A stretch of DNA of 64,000 nt, taken from Pelistega ratti (lineage in GTDB: Bacteria; Pseudomonadota; Gammaproteobacteria; Burkholderiales; Burkholderiaceae_B). Position 1 is the first letter of the stretch; each line of letters begins with the position of its first letter. Positions 32,695 through 43,908 of the stretch are shown piece after piece. The DNA is taken from NCBI RefSeq assembly GCF_009833965.1, contig NZ_CP047165.1, positions 1 through 64,000 on the forward strand, given 5' to 3'. Position numbers and translations under genes: made by a program. The notes under the pieces were generated by a model that saw nothing but the letters and a program-made list of their open reading frames with translations, did not search any database and was not told the origin of the DNA.

Positions 32695-33357
32695 ATGTTT
32701 GGTATTACTAAAGAGCAGTTTTTAAAAGCATTTCAATATCGTAGTGCTACTCGTGCTTATGATCCTGAGAAGAAAATTAGCCAAGAAGATTTTGATTATA
32801 TCCTAGAGTTAGGACGTTTATCGCCTAGTTCAGTTGGTTCAGAGCCTTGGCAGTTTGTTGTTATTCAAAATCCTGAGTTACGCTTAAAGCTGAAACCAGT
32901 TAGTTGGGGAATGCAAACGCAAGTAGAGGATTGTAGCCATCTAGTGGTATTTCTAGCTAAGAAAAATGCTCGTTGGGATTCTGCCTTTTTACGTCAAGGA
33001 TTGGGGCGGCGTAATATTACGGGTGAACAAATGGAACAAGTAATTGAAAAGTATAAGAGTTTTCAAGAGCAGGATATTAAAGTAACCGAAAGTGAACGAG
33101 CTTTATTTGACTGGTGCAGTAAACAAACCTATATTGCATTAGGAAATATGATGACAGGTGCAGCAGTAATAGGTATTGATTCTTGTCCTATTGAAGGATT
33201 TAACTATGAGGCAGTCAATCAGATTTTGGTAGAAGCAGGTGTGTTTAATCCAGAAGAATGGGGCGTATCTGTTATGGCAACTTTTGGTTATCGTGCTAAA
33301 GAGATTACTCGCAAATCACGCAAACCTATTGAAGAAGTAGTGAAGTGGATTAAATAA
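32695..33357 (+). CDS. Nitroreductase-family NAD(P)H-dependent oxidoreductase
   Basis: 220 aa FMN-dependent oxidoreductase of the NfsB/nitroreductase fold. FMN-binding signs are YRSATRAYDPEKKIS near residue 16, LGRLSPSSVGSEPWQFVVIQN near residues 40-60 and IGIDSCPIEGF near residue 160, with a C-terminal GYRAKEITRKSRKPIEEVV. Physiological substrate unknown; quinones or nitroaromatics are usual for the family. AGGAAA precedes the ATG. It is followed by a large AT-rich inverted repeat and an insertion sequence. Confidence 0.87.
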   Translation: MFGITKEQFLKAFQYRSATRAYDPEKKISQEDFDYILELGRLSPSSVGSEPWQFVVIQNPELRLKLKPVSWGMQTQVEDCSHLVVFLAKKNARWDSAFLRQGLGRRNITGEQMEQVIEKYKSFQEQDIKVTESERALFDWCSKQTYIALGNMMTGAAVIGIDSCPIEGFNYEAVNQILVEAGVFNPEEWGVSVMATFGYRAKEITRKSRKPIEEVVKWIK

Positions 33358-33569: not shown

Positions 33570-34409
33570 TCAAGCGTTGTTTACACTATTTGCAAAATAA
33601 ATTTCTAAATATTCGTAAGGTGTCAGTGTCCGTTTATGACCAAGTTGATCTTGGTAAACAAGAGCACTATGTGGTTTTACGGTGTTGTAGAAATTAATAA
33701 ATCGGGTAAGCTCCTGTTTTCTATGCTGGCTATCGGTAAATTCATGTTTATCATGCCACATTTGCATCAAGGTTCTAATTACCCGTTCTGCTTTTCCATT
33801 GGTTTTAGGATTGGCGACTTTAGTAAATTTTTGATTGATATGATGTTGATAACAAGCTTTACCAAACTCATGTTCTTTTGTTCCTTTATATTCTGTTCCA
33901 TTATCCGAGTAAATAACCTCTATGGTATAAGGACAAGGGTCTATCAGATGTTGGGTTAAGAACGTAGCCGCACTAAAGGCGGTTTTATCTGGCATAATAG
34001 CCGCATATAATTCACGCGAGTAATCATCAATAGCTACAAACAGATATTCCCTTTGACTTTGTGTATGTTGTCCTTTTAGTAAAGGCAAACGTTTTGTATC
34101 GACATGAATCATCTCGCCAGGATAGGATTTATTATAGCGTTTGGCTTGTTTTTTTAATCGTTCTTGGATGGACTTTTCTACTTTGGCTAAGCGTTTAATC
34201 CCAAATTTAGCCTGTCTAAACCGATTATTGATACTGGTCTGAGGTTTTAATAATCGACCACGAGCGAGTTTGAGTATCTTATAGATGGTGGGGCGAGAAA
34301 CCTTGTATTCTTTCGCTAAAGAGGTGACATTTTGTTTGTTTTGCGTGTAAGCTAGCCAAATCTCTTCTCTTTGGCGAGGTAATAAGCGAGTGTTTTTGTG
34401 TATATTCAT
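33570..34409 (-). CDS. IS481-family transposase
   Basis: 279 aa, full-length DDE transposase. N-terminal helix-turn-helix (LPRQREEIWLAYTQNKQNVTSLAKEYKVSRPTIYKILK), then the integrase core with acidic residues in HVDTKRLPLL, YSDNGTEYKG and KTNGKAERVIRTLMQ, giving the D, D, E set. The C-terminal FINFYNTVKPHSAL block is typical of IS481. No frameshift is seen, so it may be active. The stop codon lies at the edge of the left inverted repeat, so the last codons are part of the element end. Confidence 0.92.
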   Translation of the reverse strand: MNIHKNTRLLPRQREEIWLAYTQNKQNVTSLAKEYKVSRPTIYKILKLARGRLLKPQTSINNRFRQAKFGIKRLAKVEKSIQERLKKQAKRYNKSYPGEMIHVDTKRLPLLKGQHTQSQREYLFVAIDDYSRELYAAIMPDKTAFSAATFLTQHLIDPCPYTIEVIYSDNGTEYKGTKEHEFGKACYQHHINQKFTKVANPKTNGKAERVIRTLMQMWHDKHEFTDSQHRKQELTRFINFYNTVKPHSALVYQDQLGHKRTLTPYEYLEIYFANSVNNA

Positions 34410-35263: not shown

Positions 35264-36388
35264 TTAACAACCACCACTACCTTCAGGATCATCTGTAAAA
35301 GGATTTTGCTTAAAAATTGGTATAAATGTTAGCAAATAGAGTACAAATACCATTATCAGCAATAAAGAGGGAATGTTGGTTTGTAACCATTCTGGTGCTA
35401 AAGGCATTAATACCGTACGAGTTAGTGCGGTAAGGAATAATAGGGGTAAAGCAATACGGCAAAGTATAGGGTAATCTAATCGTATAAATCCACTATGCCA
35501 TAAGCCAGCAGTAAGCCACACCATAAGCACACCACCAAAGATACCTGCTATCGTAATGAGGTGTAAGGGGGTACTGCTAAGTGTTTGAAAAAGATGTGTA
35601 TAGCCTAACCAGAGATAAGCTATACTGGCAAAAAGTTGTAAAAAATAATATGTACGTACATAATGTATGCGTAGTAGTTCATGATGATGTAACTCACGCA
35701 GTTTAGCGAGTAGAATCAGACCAACAGCTAATGCCATAAAACCAACAGCTTGTTGTGGTAGGTAGCGTTCAGCGATTGCATACATTAAAATAAGTAAAAT
35801 AGCGATATTTTTATAAACTGCATTAGGAATAAAGATAGGATCCTTTAATGTACTTCTTTTTAGTGCTTCATTTCCTAAGAGAATACTAACCCGAAAGGAT
35901 ACCAACATCACCGCCGCCATATTTAAATGAACTTGGGTTTTAAGCCATGAAAGATCGCCTGTCATGGCATAACGTGTTTGCACAAGGGTAAAACAAGATA
36001 GTAATAGTAAGAGGGCAAAGTTATTGGTATTACGATCTAACCATATAAGCCATGTGGTAAAAAGCAATAAAACGAACCAGTACGCAGCGATAATATAACT
36101 ACTTATAGTAGGAGCAATAAAAAGTGTGATAAACCCTAATAGTAGTAATATCCCAAGTATATTAGCAATCCCTTTTAGACTTCCTGAGAAGTGAGTCCAT
36201 TCTAATAAAGCTGCCATTAAAAAACCACCGTAGGCAGCGGGTAACATAAATTCAAGAAAAATTTGTCTGTGCAGAATAATTGCTGTTGGACTTATCCAAA
36301 AACTGATGCTACTGATAATAGCAAAACAGGCCGTTATTACAAAAAAAGGACGCATGGGGTGCGTAAAGAAGGTTTGCCAGCTACTCAT
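35264..36388 (-). CDS. NnrS family membrane protein
   Basis: 374 aa from the ATG at 36388 (MSSWQTFFTHPMRPFFVITA); the frame extends further upstream, but HPMRPFF is the standard NnrS beginning. About twelve hydrophobic segments. NnrS is a heme- and copper-containing inner-membrane protein linked to nitric oxide stress in other proteobacteria. Conserved His residues (FTHPMRPFF, EWTHFSG, LHHHELLRIHY, GLWHSG) would be the metal ligands. The C-terminus ends SGGC. Its ATG overlaps the ATPase stop by 8 nt, so it is coupled to the ABC transporter genes. Confidence 0.85.
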   Translation of the reverse strand: MSSWQTFFTHPMRPFFVITACFAIISSISFWISPTAIILHRQIFLEFMLPAAYGGFLMAALLEWTHFSGSLKGIANILGILLLLGFITLFIAPTISSYIIAAYWFVLLLFTTWLIWLDRNTNNFALLLLLSCFTLVQTRYAMTGDLSWLKTQVHLNMAAVMLVSFRVSILLGNEALKRSTLKDPIFIPNAVYKNIAILLILMYAIAERYLPQQAVGFMALAVGLILLAKLRELHHHELLRIHYVRTYYFLQLFASIAYLWLGYTHLFQTLSSTPLHLITIAGIFGGVLMVWLTAGLWHSGFIRLDYPILCRIALPLLFLTALTRTVLMPLAPEWLQTNIPSLLLIMVFVLYLLTFIPIFKQNPFTDDPEGSGGC

Positions 36389-37070
36389 AATAATGGATTC
36401 CTTGAAACTCACGAGCAACGATTTTTTCTTCGTACGATGAATCACGAGAAGAGAGGGGTTCTGGTAAGATAACTCGATGGTTAATCTTCATGCCTTTTGG
36501 GGATAAAAATAAAATCTCATGGCTTAATCGAGCCGCTTCAAAACGATCATGAGTAACAAGTACACAAGCCATTCCTTGCTCAATTTTGTCATTTAAAAGA
36601 CGAACTAATATATCGCGTAAATCACGATCTAATCCAACAAAGGGTTCATCTAATAATGCCAAGTCACAACCACACAGTAAAAGACGTAAAAAGGCGACAC
36701 GTTTTGCCATACCGCCTGAAAGCTCTGTTGGGTATTTATATAAATCCCCTTGTGTGAGTCCAACTTTGGCTGCTAATGCAATCACAGCAGGTATATCCGC
36801 CTTTTCCATAAAAATAGTGATATTTTGCATCGCTGTCAGATTTTCAAGTAAGCGGTTTTCTTGAAATAAAAATCCAATTTTTTGAAAATCACTACTTATT
36901 TTTCCTGATTTTGGGGTCTCTAGTCCTGCAATAAGACGTAGAATAGTTGTTTTACCACAGCCACTGGGTCCAAATAAGGTTTTTACCTCACCTCGTTGTA
37001 GTGTAAAGCTAAAATGACGAATAATAGGATCTCGTAGTATCTCAAAACGAATATGATCTAATGTTAGCAT
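36381..37070 (-). CDS. ABC transporter ATP-binding protein (nitrate/taurine/sulfonate type)
   Basis: 229 aa from the ATG at 37070, preferred over an ATG at 37082 because GGAGA lies between them and the 37070 start makes a TAATG junction with the permease stop. Motifs: Walker A GPSGCGKTTI near residue 36, signature LSGGMAKRVAFLR near residue 126, Walker B LALLDEPFVGLD, and H-loop VTHDRFEA. It is shorter than SsuB/TauB relatives. Couples with the upstream permease and, by an 8-nt overlap, with nnrS. Confidence 0.88.
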   Translation of the reverse strand: MLTLDHIRFEILRDPIIRHFSFTLQRGEVKTLFGPSGCGKTTILRLIAGLETPKSGKISSDFQKIGFLFQENRLLENLTAMQNITIFMEKADIPAVIALAAKVGLTQGDLYKYPTELSGGMAKRVAFLRLLLCGCDLALLDEPFVGLDRDLRDILVRLLNDKIEQGMACVLVTHDRFEAARLSHEILFLSPKGMKINHRVILPEPLSSRDSSYEEKIVAREFQGIHYYE

Positions 37071-37867
37071 TATCGTCTCCAAGGCATTAGAATAATTTCA
37101 AGGGGCTTGGTGATGAGGTATTCAAAAAGTGAGACAAAAACAATAACCAATACAACATATGCCATTACCGTAGATGTTTCTAACATGACTCGAGCATCGG
37201 CAATTTTAGCGCCCATACCATCACTTGCACCTAATAGCTCCGCCATAATAACCACTTTGACACCCATTGCAACTGCAATACTGATACTAGAGATGACATA
37301 GCTAGTAAGGTGAGGGAGGTAGAGATAACGGATTTTTTTTAATAAAGAACAACGGTAAGCATCAAAAAGCTCTTCATGTTGTTGGTTAATACTCGCCATA
37401 CCCATTGCGGCACTGGCAAACGTTAGGGGGGATACTAGTACAATAATCGTAAATAATACGCTGGGTGAACCAAATCCAAACCAGAACAATGCCATCACTA
37501 CCCAGATAATAGGGGGCATAGCTAATAAAATCGTGATAATGGGTTTAAGTAATGCCATGGCGGTTTTAAAGCTACCTGCTATTAAACCTAAGCATAATCC
37601 TGCTATTAAAGAAATACTAATCCCTAAAATAGCTCGTGATAGTGTAATATCTAATTCATAAAGGCTAAATTGTTGCAATAAAGCCCATGATTGATGAAAA
37701 ACATTTAAAGGGGAAGGCAGCATAAACTCACCGAATACTGTGCTTCCCCAAGCCCACAAAGCAACGAGTACCATAGCAATTGCAAGGCTAGTAAAACCAC
37801 TCCATAGATAATCTATAATAATAAATATCATAGGCTGTGGTTTTTTGATTTTATCGGTCTTAATCAT
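37070..37867 (-). CDS. ABC transporter permease (SsuC/TauC-like)
   Basis: 265 aa with about six membrane segments. The family fold is seen in FGEFMLPSPLNVFHQSWALLQ near residue 50, LSRAILGISISLIAGLCLGLIAG, and the EAA coupling loop HEELFDAYRCSLLKKIRYLYLPHLTSYVIS near residue 168. The substrate cannot be read from sequence. It ends in a TAATG overlap with the ATPase gene and starts 89 nt after the binding-protein gene. Confidence 0.87.
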   Translation of the reverse strand: MIKTDKIKKPQPMIFIIIDYLWSGFTSLAIAMVLVALWAWGSTVFGEFMLPSPLNVFHQSWALLQQFSLYELDITLSRAILGISISLIAGLCLGLIAGSFKTAMALLKPIITILLAMPPIIWVVMALFWFGFGSPSVLFTIIVLVSPLTFASAAMGMASINQQHEELFDAYRCSLLKKIRYLYLPHLTSYVISSISIAVAMGVKVVIMAELLGASDGMGAKIADARVMLETSTVMAYVVLVIVFVSLFEYLITKPLEIILMPWRR

Positions 37868-37956: not shown

Positions 37957-38925
37957 TTATACCAAGAAAAAATCATCACTTGGTAATTTACCCCCAAGTA
38001 ATTTAGGATTAAATCGCATTAACTCTTCATAAAATTGCATTAATTCGGTTTTGATATCTCTACTTTTTGTTACGGTGAGATTTGCGTAAGGTAAACTTTG
38101 TACTAAGGCAGGTACAGGAGCAGGCATATAGTTTTTACCAATTTGAGCGGCACTTTGTGGGTTGTTGTTTGCCCATGCTAGAGCCGCTTGTAAATCCTGA
38201 TGGAATAATTCAAATTGTTCTTGATGTTGTTGAAAGTAGTCAATATCTGCAATAATCCCTGCTTGTGGAATCATTGCTTGTGTATTAAATGCCTCACCCC
38301 ATGCTTGGGTTAAATTAAAACTACGCACTACATTGATTCCCATTGTTTTCCCTTTTAAGATACTGGCACTTGCCATTGGTTCGGGGAGTAAAACAGCATC
38401 AAAATCTTTATTGAGGAATAAACCCACCGCCTCAGGAGGTGTTGCCGTATAAGTGATAGCTATTTTTTGGCTATCAATATTCAGTTTTTTAAGTAAAGCG
38501 TGTAAAACAATATCAAGCATATCGTTTTTGAAAGGAATTAAGACTTTTTTACCTATTAAATCTTGTGGTTGATTAATCGCTTGTTTACTGACAATATTAA
38601 TAATCCCTTTGGTGAGAATATTAATCATACCAACACGCTGCCCTTGGTTAGCTAAATTAACCCCTACATTACTTGGGCTCATCATTACTTTAAATTGACC
38701 ACTTGCAACCCCTGCACGTAACTGATCAGGTGATCGCCATGTTTTTAGTGATACATCCATCTGTTTGGTTAATTGCCCTTGTACAGCAGCAATCCCGATA
38801 ATCATACTAGGTAGGGCAGGCGCTCCGTAAATAGCAAAGGTTTCTTTCTCCGCAGCTAATAAATTGGGTGAAAGTCCTAGTGTTGAAGTACCTGCTAATA
38901 ATTTTAAAAATCCTCGTCTTTGCAT
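37957..38925 (-). CDS. ABC transporter substrate-binding protein with Tat-like signal
   Basis: 322 aa. The N-terminus QRRGFLKLLAGTSTLGLSPNLLAA has a twin-arginine-type signal, suggesting export in folded, perhaps cofactor- or metal-loaded form. The mature part follows the NMT1/SsuA-like fold (IGIAAVQGQL; TPPEAVGLFLNKDFDAVLLPEPMAS). Ligand unknown: relatives bind nitrate, sulfonates, thiamine precursors and others. It lies 51 nt after the beta-barrel gene and before the permease, so is most likely the periplasmic step of the same uptake route. Confidence 0.85.
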   Translation of the reverse strand: MQRRGFLKLLAGTSTLGLSPNLLAAEKETFAIYGAPALPSMIIGIAAVQGQLTKQMDVSLKTWRSPDQLRAGVASGQFKVMMSPSNVGVNLANQGQRVGMINILTKGIINIVSKQAINQPQDLIGKKVLIPFKNDMLDIVLHALLKKLNIDSQKIAITYTATPPEAVGLFLNKDFDAVLLPEPMASASILKGKTMGINVVRSFNLTQAWGEAFNTQAMIPQAGIIADIDYFQQHQEQFELFHQDLQAALAWANNNPQSAAQIGKNYMPAPVPALVQSLPYANLTVTKSRDIKTELMQFYEELMRFNPKLLGGKLPSDDFFLV

Positions 38926-38976: not shown

Positions 38977-40896
38977 TTAGAATGCAGCGTGTAGGCTAAG
39001 CCAATATGTTCTACCCGGTGCATTCACTACGGCAGTAGGGGATAGGGCGACAACATGATCACCACTGATAAACTCAGCATAACGTTTATCAAATATATTA
39101 TTAATACCTAACCGTACGCCATATTTATCGTGGATATTAATACCAGCATAAATATCTGCAACAACAAAGCTTTTGGCGGCTTCATGGTTGTCTATTCCTA
39201 ACCCTTTTGTTTTATCAAAATCTCCACGGTGTTGCTTAGCGACATAGCGTGCAGTAATCCCTACATTGTAGCTACCAAGACTAAAATAATCTTTATAATC
39301 TGCCTGTGCCATTAACTCAAATGGACGCATTTGGTATAACGCACGACCATCGGTTTCATTCTGTCCGTAGTTATAGCGTGCTTTAAGCCCTGCTGCCCAA
39401 TGTGCATTAAAGTTGTAGTGTGCATAGGCTTGAGCTGTAAATAGGCGGGCATCTACATTTCGAGTGATAATCCCACCGCCTTGGGTGGAGACACCACGTT
39501 GGTTTCTAGCACGATCAAAAATAATTAAATCTTTTACTTTATCAAAGATTAAATCACCACCTATATGCCAACCTTGCCCTGTTAGTGAGTTCATATAGTC
39601 ATTATAGGCATCATTTTTGGTATCAATGCTAAGTTTAATAAAATTATGTTGTTCTGGTTTAAGTAAAGGATTCCCTACAATAGCAGCAACAGGTCGTTGG
39701 TTCATTAATTGACCATTAATCGTATTATGAATAATTGCCGCAATAGAATTAAAGCGTTCTAAATGGTTTCCAACTCGTTCAATATGAGCTAAGGTAAGGC
39801 TGTACTTTTGATATTCTGATGGGGTGTAATCGTATTGTAATTCTCCTGAGAAAGTTTCTTGTCGTACTTTACCATCAAATGCATAACCATAATGAGCTTG
39901 CCATATCTGTTGAGGATTAGCAAATGCTAAGCGTGGATTCATAGGGTTGGCAAGACGTGTGGTATTTTTACGAACCTCCGCTTCATTAAATTCATACGTC
40001 AGTCCTAAACCAAGTTTATGTTGTTCATTAAAACGATAGGATAAGGTATTTGATAGACGATAGCGATTGATATGTACATCACCAAAACGATATCCATTAA
40101 GAATATCCCTTCGGGGGGTATGTAGATAGCGCTCTCCATTAAAGTAATCATGTTGATAAGAAATAGCTGCTGTGTTATGAAACTGACCAATATCGTAATC
40201 ATGTTTAAGGGAGAAGTTAAACATTTTACGTTCTAAATCAAGATATATATTTTGTGCGTGATTTTCTCGTAATGTATAGTTATCAGCATGACGCTGCATC
40301 TTGATAAAACTTGTTTCGGCTTGCAGTGTATTACTTAAATCAGCCTTACCCCACCGAGCATTGAGTTTAGCAATATGCCGCTCTGTTTTAATAGGATCCA
40401 TCGCAAACTCAGGTTGTTTATCATCATCTATATTGTCATGTAGATAAGTGAGTTTGTATTCTTGATATTCAGAAGGGACAAATCCTAAAATCACTGATTG
40501 ATTAAATCGCTTATACCCCCAATCAACATCATGACCTGCACCATCTTTATATCCATTGGCTTTTGTGTGATTAAGGTTGGCAATTCCATAAAAATTTGCA
40601 CCGCGTGCTTGTGCCGATATTGCGTTATAAAAATTCTTACCATAAAACCCACTATTGATTTTTAAAGGGCGAAAGGCTTTATCAATATTTTCTGTCACAA
40701 AGTAGTAATCACGGCGATCAGTACGATCAAACTGATTTTCAGGAAAATAACCTAATGCAATATTCGGAGTAATGGGTTTAGGAGGTGAAAAGAATTTAAT
40801 CGGTTCAATCGTATCTGGATTAGCAAGCTCTTGAGCAAAGGTAGTTATCGTAATAAAACTACTTAAGAGTGTGCAAATAGATAATTTTAAATTCAT
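38977..40896 (-). CDS. OprC/NosA-like TonB-dependent-receptor beta-barrel, apparently without plug domain
   Basis: 639 aa, with a Sec signal peptide ending TTFA-Q and the terminal Phe of outer-membrane barrels. From about residue 70 it follows the copper-receptor (OprC/NosA) barrel: YYFVTENIDKAFRPLKINSGFYG, NGYKDGAGHDVDWGYKRFNQS, NPLLKPEQHNFIKLS, GINNIFDKRYAEF. The normal plug (about 130 residues between signal and barrel) is missing: only some 50 residues, rich in Pro and charge, lie there, with no plug motifs. There is no frameshift. An AGGAGG site precedes the ATG, and a Fur-like box lies just upstream. First gene of the barrel-SBP-permease-ATPase-nnrS unit. Family assignment is from recalled motifs, not a search. 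Confidence 0.75.
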   Translation of the reverse strand: MNLKLSICTLLSSFITITTFAQELANPDTIEPIKFFSPPKPITPNIALGYFPENQFDRTDRRDYYFVTENIDKAFRPLKINSGFYGKNFYNAISAQARGANFYGIANLNHTKANGYKDGAGHDVDWGYKRFNQSVILGFVPSEYQEYKLTYLHDNIDDDKQPEFAMDPIKTERHIAKLNARWGKADLSNTLQAETSFIKMQRHADNYTLRENHAQNIYLDLERKMFNFSLKHDYDIGQFHNTAAISYQHDYFNGERYLHTPRRDILNGYRFGDVHINRYRLSNTLSYRFNEQHKLGLGLTYEFNEAEVRKNTTRLANPMNPRLAFANPQQIWQAHYGYAFDGKVRQETFSGELQYDYTPSEYQKYSLTLAHIERVGNHLERFNSIAAIIHNTINGQLMNQRPVAAIVGNPLLKPEQHNFIKLSIDTKNDAYNDYMNSLTGQGWHIGGDLIFDKVKDLIIFDRARNQRGVSTQGGGIITRNVDARLFTAQAYAHYNFNAHWAAGLKARYNYGQNETDGRALYQMRPFELMAQADYKDYFSLGSYNVGITARYVAKQHRGDFDKTKGLGIDNHEAAKSFVVADIYAGINIHDKYGVRLGINNIFDKRYAEFISGDHVVALSPTAVVNAPGRTYWLSLHAAF

Positions 40897-40908: not shown

Positions 40909-40923
40909 TAAGAATAATTATCA
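40909..40923 (-). promoter_or_regulatory. Fur-box-like site upstream of the beta-barrel gene
   Basis: TGATAATTATTCTTA on the minus strand matches the 7-1-7 Fur consensus TGATAAT-N-ATTATCA at 12 of 14 paired positions. A further GATAAT lies about 20 nt upstream. It is 13 nt ahead of the barrel ATG, next to the ribosome binding site. Confidence 0.6.
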
Positions 40924-41332
40924 TTTCCTTTTTCATTATCGTACAAAAGTAATATGAAGTAAACCGATATGAGGAAATTCTATAAATTTAGCGTAATAGT
41001 TTTATATCAATGTATATGATAAATAGCCTATAAATTTCTTATATTTCAATAACTTATATTAAATTATTGTTATGAAAAGAAAGATTTTTTAGGGGGTAGG
41101 GGAAAATGATTGTTATATTTTATGTAACAGAAGGTATATTTTATGGGAGTAGATGGATAAGAAAAAGAGTAGTAGTGCCGAGTTTTAATATTACTAAACG
41201 AATTATCTAAATACTTTAAATAATATATAAGGAAATAGAATTTATAATGGTTTTGGCTTATCAGCTACTATTTTTTAAAAACCTATGTAAAATAAAGGGC
41301 TTATTTATTATTTGCTTTTTACTTTTTTTAAG
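40924..41332. other. Intergenic region before lysC
   Basis: Divergent gap of over 400 nt between the beta-barrel and lysC genes. Apart from the Fur-like site at its left end, I see only AT-rich DNA. No tRNA, riboswitch or small gene was recognised; the two promoters must be here. Confidence 0.4.
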
Positions 41333-42660: not shown

Positions 42661-42930
42661 TGAAACAACAACTGTAAATAGTGTTTAGGTCGCTCAAGTT
42701 ATTGCCTATTTTATTTAAAAACAAATTTTATTCATGACAAATTTCTATATTGATGTAGTAGATATATAGGTCAATAGATAGAGATTTTTAATTCATCATT
42801 TCTGTTGTATATAAAGTAGCAAAATGTAATAACTATTTTTTATATAAGTAATGATTCTCCTATGTCAGTAGTGCTTATTGTTATTTATAATAAATGCTAT
42901 TATTATCCTAAGGGAAAGGAGTGTTTTACT
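42661..42930. other. Intergenic region before the CDF transporter
   Basis: Rest of the 338-nt gap between lysC and the cation exporter. AT-rich with no gene, RNA or strong repeat seen. Confidence 0.4.
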
Positions 42931-43908
42931 ATGTCATCTGCACACCACCATCACCATGATGGACATCATCATGTTCATACCAGTAATAAAAAAGTATTGC
43001 GTATTTCATTATGGATTATCGCTATTTATATGATGGTTGAAGTGATAGGGGGTCTGTGGACAGGAAGCCTAGCTTTACTATCTGATGCAGGTCATATGTT
43101 TTCAGATGCCTTTGCGATAGGATTATCTTTATTAGCCTTTCAATTTGCTGAACGGGCAAGTAATTCACAAAATACCTTTGGTTACAAGAGAGCTGAAATT
43201 TTAGCTGCTGCATTAAATGGCATAACGTTAATTGTTATTGCGGTATTAATTATTATTGAAGCGATTAGACGGTTTTACCAACCACCAGAGATTGCAACAG
43301 TAGGAATGTTGCTGATTAGCTTTATTGGCTTGGTGGTGAATATTGTGATTGCTGTGTATATGCATCGTCAGGGAGATACAGAGCAAAATGTGAATATGCG
43401 AAGTGCTTATTTACATGTGCTAGGAGATTTACTGGGATCAGTCGGTGCGATTATTGCGGCATTGTTAATGATGTTTTTTGATTGGCGATTGGCTGACCCT
43501 TTAGTAAGTGTGATGGTAGCACTACTGATTGCTCGAAGTGCTTATGGTATTCTCAAAAGCACGTTCCCTATCCTTATGGAAGCCGCCCCTTCTCATATCA
43601 ATCAGCAATCTATTGTAGAGGATATATTGAATACAGAAGGAATACAAGGCATTCATGATTTACATGTCTGGACATTAACAGGACAAGGTCATTATTTTTC
43701 TGCTCATTTGGTTGTAGAAGAGACATTAACAGTCGTAGAAACAAGCCAAATAATTCATCAAATAGAAGCTAAATTAAAAGATTACGGTATTTTGCATAGT
43801 ACGCTACAGGTAGAAGGTAAACGTCATCAACATAGTGAAACACTCTATTGTGATGGCATGCAGAATCATCAGCACCATGCACCACACCATACCTGCCATC
43901 ATCATTAG
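42931..43908 (+). CDS. Cation diffusion facilitator metal exporter (CzcD/ZitB-like)
   Basis: 325 aa from the ATG at 42931, chosen because AAAGGAG lies 9 nt upstream. Six membrane segments. Metal-site helices are LLSDAGHMFSDAFAIGLSL near residue 53 and YLHVLGDLLGSVGAIIA near residue 162, each with the HxxxD pair of the Zn2+-type CDF family. The cytoplasmic C-terminal domain begins IHDLHVWTLTGQGHYFSAHLVV. Both ends are His-rich (HHHHHDGHHHVH at the N-terminus; HQHHAPHHTCHHH at the C-terminus), a trait of zinc/cobalt exporters. No metal-responsive regulator is adjacent. Confidence 0.92.
   Translation: MSSAHHHHHDGHHHVHTSNKKVLRISLWIIAIYMMVEVIGGLWTGSLALLSDAGHMFSDAFAIGLSLLAFQFAERASNSQNTFGYKRAEILAAALNGITLIVIAVLIIIEAIRRFYQPPEIATVGMLLISFIGLVVNIVIAVYMHRQGDTEQNVNMRSAYLHVLGDLLGSVGAIIAALLMMFFDWRLADPLVSVMVALLIARSAYGILKSTFPILMEAAPSHINQQSIVEDILNTEGIQGIHDLHVWTLTGQGHYFSAHLVVEETLTVVETSQIIHQIEAKLKDYGILHSTLQVEGKRHQHSETLYCDGMQNHQHHAPHHTCHHH

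Follow-up and report, generated by a model that had tools for sequence, protein, structure and literature searches.

The window, meaning the whole stretch of DNA that we analyzed, comprises 64,000 nucleotides of Pelistega ratti. On its minus strand, a gene for a TonB-receptor-type barrel protein heads five same-strand genes and is followed by those for a binding protein, a permease, an ATPase and an NnrS family protein (Table 1). The barrel frame is intact, with 639 residues and no internal stop codons, and the protein ends in Phe, both as an earlier note on this DNA had stated. The twin-arginine start of the binding protein is visible in its sequence, and its gene, together with those of the permease and the ATPase (PF09084, PF00528 and PF00005), forms an NMT1-like ABC uptake set. 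Rfam returned no matches between positions 33000 and 43000 of the window.

Table 1. Coordinates of the genes and features at the locus, with the basis of each assignment
Feature	Position	Strand	Basis
Plug-free TonB-receptor-type barrel protein, 639 aa (stop included)	38977..40896	-	Intact frame, TIGR01778 barrel part, no Plug
Likely signal peptide, residues 1-21	40834..40896	-	By eye from sequence
Conserved plug-replacing segment, residues 22-77	40666..40833	-	Alignments, dN/dS
Segment core motif F-x-P-P-x-x-I ... N-x-F-D, residues 36-57	40726..40791	-	Alignment
Barrel part, residues 78-639	38980..40665	-	Profile-profile match to plugged relatives
OprC HxM ligand position, residues 202-204, here R-H-A	40285..40293	-	Column counts; ligands per PMC8610252 (excerpt)
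ABC substrate-binding protein, NMT1-like, twin-arginine start	37957..38925	-	PF09084, 28.5 bits against a cut-off of 20.5
ABC permease	37070..37867	-	PF00528, E 1.1e-17
ABC ATPase	36381..37082	-	PF00005, E 2.4e-26
NnrS family membrane protein	35264..36445	-	PF05940, E 1.2e-34
Fur-box-like site, 14/19 (weak evidence)	40910..40928	-	Best of the window's 45 upstream regions; 14/200 shuffles equal

The homology searches upheld the earlier proposal of an OprC-like barrel. The protein matched the NCBIfam model TIGR01778 (TonB-copper) from residue 101 onward, over model positions 141–637 (E 8.6e-50), with a score of 170.1 bits that lies under the curated cut-off of 472.45 bits, and it matched the solved OprC chains by sequence (E 2.4e-20). 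Alignment of plug-free against plugged profiles recovered the barrel from residue 95 with a probability of 100 and an E-value of 6.5e-65. By homology, the protein is a predicted 22-stranded barrel of the TonB-receptor family. The Pfam barrel family PF00593 was detected (E up to 0.01) in 7 of 20 plug-free sequences versus 22 of 22 plugged relatives, and gave no match at this threshold in the window protein itself. AlphaFold2 models of the protein with four orthologues (pLDDT 26.5) and of the binding protein with five orthologues (pLDDT 36.6) were too low in confidence to read a fold or to be of use, respectively, and a crude strand scan was uninformative.

Absence of the plug, originally read from length and sequence, was confirmed by the domain search: Pfam found no Plug in the window protein at E-values up to 1. 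At E up to 0.01, Plug was present in none of the 20 plug-free sequences versus all 22 plugged relatives, and the permissive threshold of 1 returned none in six proteins from family f87 and genome G1003, with the control G747 containing Plug. The number of residues preceding a common barrel column is 77 in the window protein and 47–100 in the plug-free rows, except for L083 (149, with a start placed too far upstream); rows labelled plugged have 126–250, except for L056 (99, frame cut) and L075 (106), the latter being labelled plugged at first and later found plug-free by profile and Pfam.

A segment of approximately 55 residues (residues 22–77) occupies the position of the plug. In the alignment of 20 plug-free sequences, A21, the end of the likely signal peptide, is invariant, as are F36, P38, P39, I42, N54 and F56, while P44, E53, Q55 and D57 are nearly so. 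This stretch, which the earlier note described as devoid of plug motifs, has no Plug match and, with its six invariant residues, is not featureless. The f87 proteins carry a differently worded segment from that of the window protein's relatives. Inspection of the alignments by eye revealed no conserved Ton-box-like stretch before the core motif. The sequence YYFVTENIDKAF (residues 64–75), previously taken for the start of an OprC barrel, was not borne out as such: it lies within the plug-replacing stretch, pairwise homology to plugged relatives begins at residues 66–113 in 10 of 12 comparisons (the remaining two begin at 269 and 407), and the profile alignment starts at 95. In the three usable pairs, namely those with a segment dS of 0.2–0.7, since saturated pairs yield pS values above 1 in the script used, dN/dS was 0.068/0.622, 0.059/0.318 and 0.055/0.223 for the segment, and 0.028/0.199, 0.022/0.257 and 0.019/0.188 for the barrel; dN of the segment core (residues 34–60) was 0.016, 0.016 and 0. 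Judged by these values, the segment is under constraint, but less so than the barrel in two of the three pairs.

In OprC, copper is ligated by Cys143 and Met147 of the plug and by His323 and Met325 of the barrel (PMC8610252, excerpt). The CxxxM motif, together with H and M at their columns, occurs in 42/42 plugged rows, and the CxxxMD pattern is absent from 19/19 plug-free rows, in which the H column is occupied by R (14), L (3), V (1) or I (1) and the M column by A (18) or N (1). By these counts, the plug-free branch has lost the OprC copper site in its plug half as well as its barrel half. Because all four ligand positions are changed or missing, the window protein is probably not an OprC-type copper receptor. 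The same genome (G000) retains a separate plugged relative that carries the copper motif.

A scan of genome contigs identified five loci, all in named Neisseria, four of them with an intact frame, of 639 aa in N. viridiae, N. polysaccharea and N. elongata and of 621 aa in N. bergeri. In N. gonorrhoeae, the barrel gene is broken into two frames (417 and 233 aa); in this stretch (L027, 10001–17201) NnrS is likewise interrupted and the permease frame stops prematurely at 229 aa, so that the operon of this strain seems to be decaying. Among 83 genomes of the Neisseria family (E 1e-20), 21 matched: ten intact in genus g86, in which locus L028 is the N. elongata sequence, one broken (G672) and two in genus g137. 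The remaining eight matched only from about residue 470 onward, and a plug was present in the four of these that were tested (L043, L044, L045 and L050).

Sampling at higher ranks extended this distribution. Within the family of P. ratti, 1 of 268 genomes matched at 1e-40, namely G000 itself, and 5 of 399 in the order sample (1e-30), comprising G000 and four of g86. In family f69, of the same class as the window, 6 of 12 genomes matched, with the frame of G1092 cut at its start. The class sample (n=369, 1e-25) gave 21 matches. G000 and G921 are plug-free, and the remaining 19 comprise 16 that matched our plug profile, two that were labelled plugged (L101 and L103) and one that is cut (L095). 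The plug profile itself derives from 22 of the 42 plugged rows for which it is reported. Seventeen matches were obtained in the phylum sample (n=378, 1e-40), nine with the plug profile and eight plug-free (G000, G310, G921 and five of f87), and G1003, a further plug-free case, was reached via its binding protein. Plug-free orthologues of similar length thus occur in Neisseria, a second genus of its family, f69 and two more distant groups. This comparison agrees with the natural plug-free form suggested by the earlier note, and it excludes a frameshift or assembly error in the window.

Recent transfer into the window's genome, considered in view of the gene's presence in one of 268 family genomes, is not indicated by G+C content (0.372 in the operon and 0.373 across the window) or by eight uptake-sequence motifs. 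No relative was found in nine viral stretches, and the two matches in a phage collection were labelled FepA. Three regions inspected in a plasmid collection belonged to a gonococcal chromosome, Thioclava and Cupriavidus. The gonococcal record (NZ_CP119140.1, 2.17 Mb) is filed as a plasmid but is a chromosome by its size, and its receptor place is in two pieces; the Thioclava and Cupriavidus receptors are plugged by eye, the latter also by profile.

In the window and in 21 of the 22 fetched Neisseriaceae and f69 loci (22/23 together), the binding-protein gene lies 3′ of the barrel gene; some species entered this set twice, through two collections, and the exception is G1093 (L085/L110). At all 14 Neisseria/g86 loci, the binding-protein match starts 64 bases after the receptor end. 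The complete five-gene set was found in the window, L023–L026, L078 and two g137 loci. The f69 stretches contain the binding protein, but neither NnrS nor a permease was matched next to the receptor; G921 has, elsewhere in its genome, another binding protein accompanied by a permease, an ATPase and NnrS. None of these four partners was found in the five f87 stretches (L143–L147, from G838, G808, G789, G908 and G801), whose barrels have an N-terminal motif of their own; in L143–L145, a gene that by eye resembles a response regulator adjoins the barrel gene.

A search in the opposite direction, for the binding protein, identified nine genomes with a relative in a phylum sample of 398. The nearby receptor is plug-free in four (G000, G310, G921 and G1003) and plugged in two (G747 and G809), and the stretch around the binding protein has no receptor match in three (G831, G1013 and G1018); therefore, the pairing of binding protein and plug-free barrel is not exclusive. 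In the window and at seven Neisseriaceae loci, a Fur-box-like site (13–15 of 19 positions) begins 25–32 bases upstream of the start of the barrel gene. The f69 loci are mixed (12–14 of 19, with 0 to 115 of 200 shuffles), and the site is absent in two f87 loci. This site hints weakly at iron control.

In a first barrel-only tree of 59 rows, which left out L015, L016, L040, L051 and duplicates, among others, 17 plug-free rows formed one group (SH-aLRT 100) against 42 others. L075, then labelled plugged, lay away from the 17 and joined G747 and G809, with a long-branch warning. After profile and Pfam had shown no plug, L075 was relabelled for a second tree, to which f87 was added and which also omitted G747, G809, L032, L101, L103 and four plug-free rows. 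Here, 18 of 19 plug-free rows grouped at 99, and a topology uniting all 19 had a higher likelihood and was not rejected (p-AU 0.718). L138, which had a branch of 6.5 in this tree and is probably in the wrong frame, was dropped for a third tree, in which all 19 plug-free rows grouped, weakly (59). All were quick trees without bootstrap, and the simplest reading of them would be a single loss of the plug.

We consider it somewhat probable (about 0.55) that these proteins constitute a natural plug-free branch of OprC/TonB-copper barrels, not worked by TonB via a plug and serving the neighboring binding protein. This reading draws on the Plug counts, the barrel homology, the grouping in trees, the segment core, the loss of the copper site, the binding-protein neighbor and the lack of a lone Plug gene in G000, G310 and G702; against it stand the five f87 members and G1093 without a nearby binding-protein gene, the plugged receptors of G747 and G809, a segment whose dN/dS exceeds that of the barrel in two of three pairs, and the weak placement of L075 (59). 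The usual TonB-dependent drive requires a plug for TonB to pull. In a plug-free branch, the 22-stranded barrel would still be built in the outer membrane without such pulling, and the ligand would cross it by diffusion or via a gate formed by the segment and loops. A barrel of such size that stayed open at all times should compromise the outer-membrane barrier, which makes some form of closure likely. The segment would sit on the periplasmic side, either as a short gate reaching into the lumen or as a dock for the exported binding protein. We infer that the barrel may be TonB-independent or differently gated and pass its ligand to the binding protein, from which the ABC permease and ATPase would move it into the cytoplasm; NnrS might work in linked metal or nitrogen-oxide metabolism. 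A more tentative proposal, which we hold to be slightly less likely than not, is that a long-conserved TonB-receptor branch has lost both plug and TonB and forms a two-piece conduit, in which the proline-rich segment of about 55 residues would gate the barrel and either dock a dedicated exported binding protein or be closed by it.

The main rival is a receptor with a reduced plug rather than a channel, in which the segment and loops would fold inside and close the barrel, and TonB or another force would move the segment. Conservation of the segment at the place of the plug, and the pairing of plugged receptors with related binding-protein genes in G747 and G809, speak for this arrangement. We nevertheless regard it as unlikely, as the lumen of OprC holds a plug of about 15 kDa (PMC8610252, excerpt), against which some 55 residues without a Plug match are few, and the core motif is not preceded by a conserved Ton-box-like stretch (judged by eye). 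Alternatively, the barrel could serve as a receptor or scaffold that binds a surface ligand or holds the binding protein while nothing passes, as the five f87 loci lacking a nearby binding-protein gene might suggest; its conserved place before that gene in Neisseriaceae and f69 makes this improbable.

A plug might instead be supplied in trans by a separate protein, and a soluble plug does partly restore an engineered plugless FpvAI (PMC10994204, excerpt). Yet all Plug matches in G000 (11/11), G310 (13/13) and G702 (4/4) lie in frames of at least 641 aa, with no lone Plug gene in these genomes; in G921, the single short match among six comes from an interrupted receptor, and in G605, 3 of 17 lie in short frames. 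We therefore consider a trans plug very improbable. Decay or misassembly of a copper receptor, to which the broken genes of N. gonorrhoeae and G672 and the cut frame of G1092 could point, deserves hardly any credence given the intact frames of similar length and purifying selection in other genomes and the grouping of plug-free rows in trees.

Compared with known systems, the window protein shares barrel homology with OprC/NosA (TIGR01778) over residues 101–639 but lacks the plug, CxxxM and HxM, in keeping with a score of 170 against the cut-off of 472. The engineered plugless FpvAI is likewise a barrel without a plug, but it is laboratory-made and the barrel-only strain is deficient in uptake (PMC10994204, excerpt), whereas the window protein is natural and conserved. 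SusCD also has a TonB-receptor barrel, with a lumen that is empty in some in vitro states; its gene, however, encodes a plug that is displaced, according to an excerpt of PMC7782687, and the window gene encodes none. In the receptor–ABC sets of G747 and G809, a receptor gene likewise adjoins related genes for binding protein, permease and ATPase, but the receptor is of another subfamily, with a Pfam Plug in G747 and, in G809, a location on the opposite strand and a plug called from sequence.

No natural plug-free TonB-receptor family was found in the literature searched, which lay largely outside subscription journals; the plug-free barrels encountered there were the barrel-only FpvAI strain and the in vitro SusCD states. 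Such a family would offer a way to probe which functions truly depend on the plug, plug movement being the unsettled step of TonB-dependent transport, and could provide natural parts for outer-membrane pores. It would also define an uncharacterized import pathway that Neisseria species share with other bacteria.

Several minor observations concern the surroundings of these genes. In the window, a transposase-like gene (by eye, 33570–34409) lies near the operon end, so that the region is possibly mobile, and a gene resembling a histidine-rich cation-diffusion transporter (by eye) is located at 42862–43908. An extra gene, absent from the window operon, separates ATPase and NnrS in some Neisseria, namely in L025 (17254–17919), L026 (15869–16534) and L078 (6042–6707); it encodes a membrane protein resembling CadD-type cadmium transporters. 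The L070 stretch of G831 (18 kb) contains a binding protein (63–64% identical), permease, ATPase and NnrS with no receptor match, and a plugged copper-type receptor elsewhere in that genome reads in two frames (L127). In G921, a siderophore-type receptor (L150, 516–2629) is split into a plug frame of 183 aa and a barrel frame of 518 aa, with the plug-free receptor about 8 kb away.
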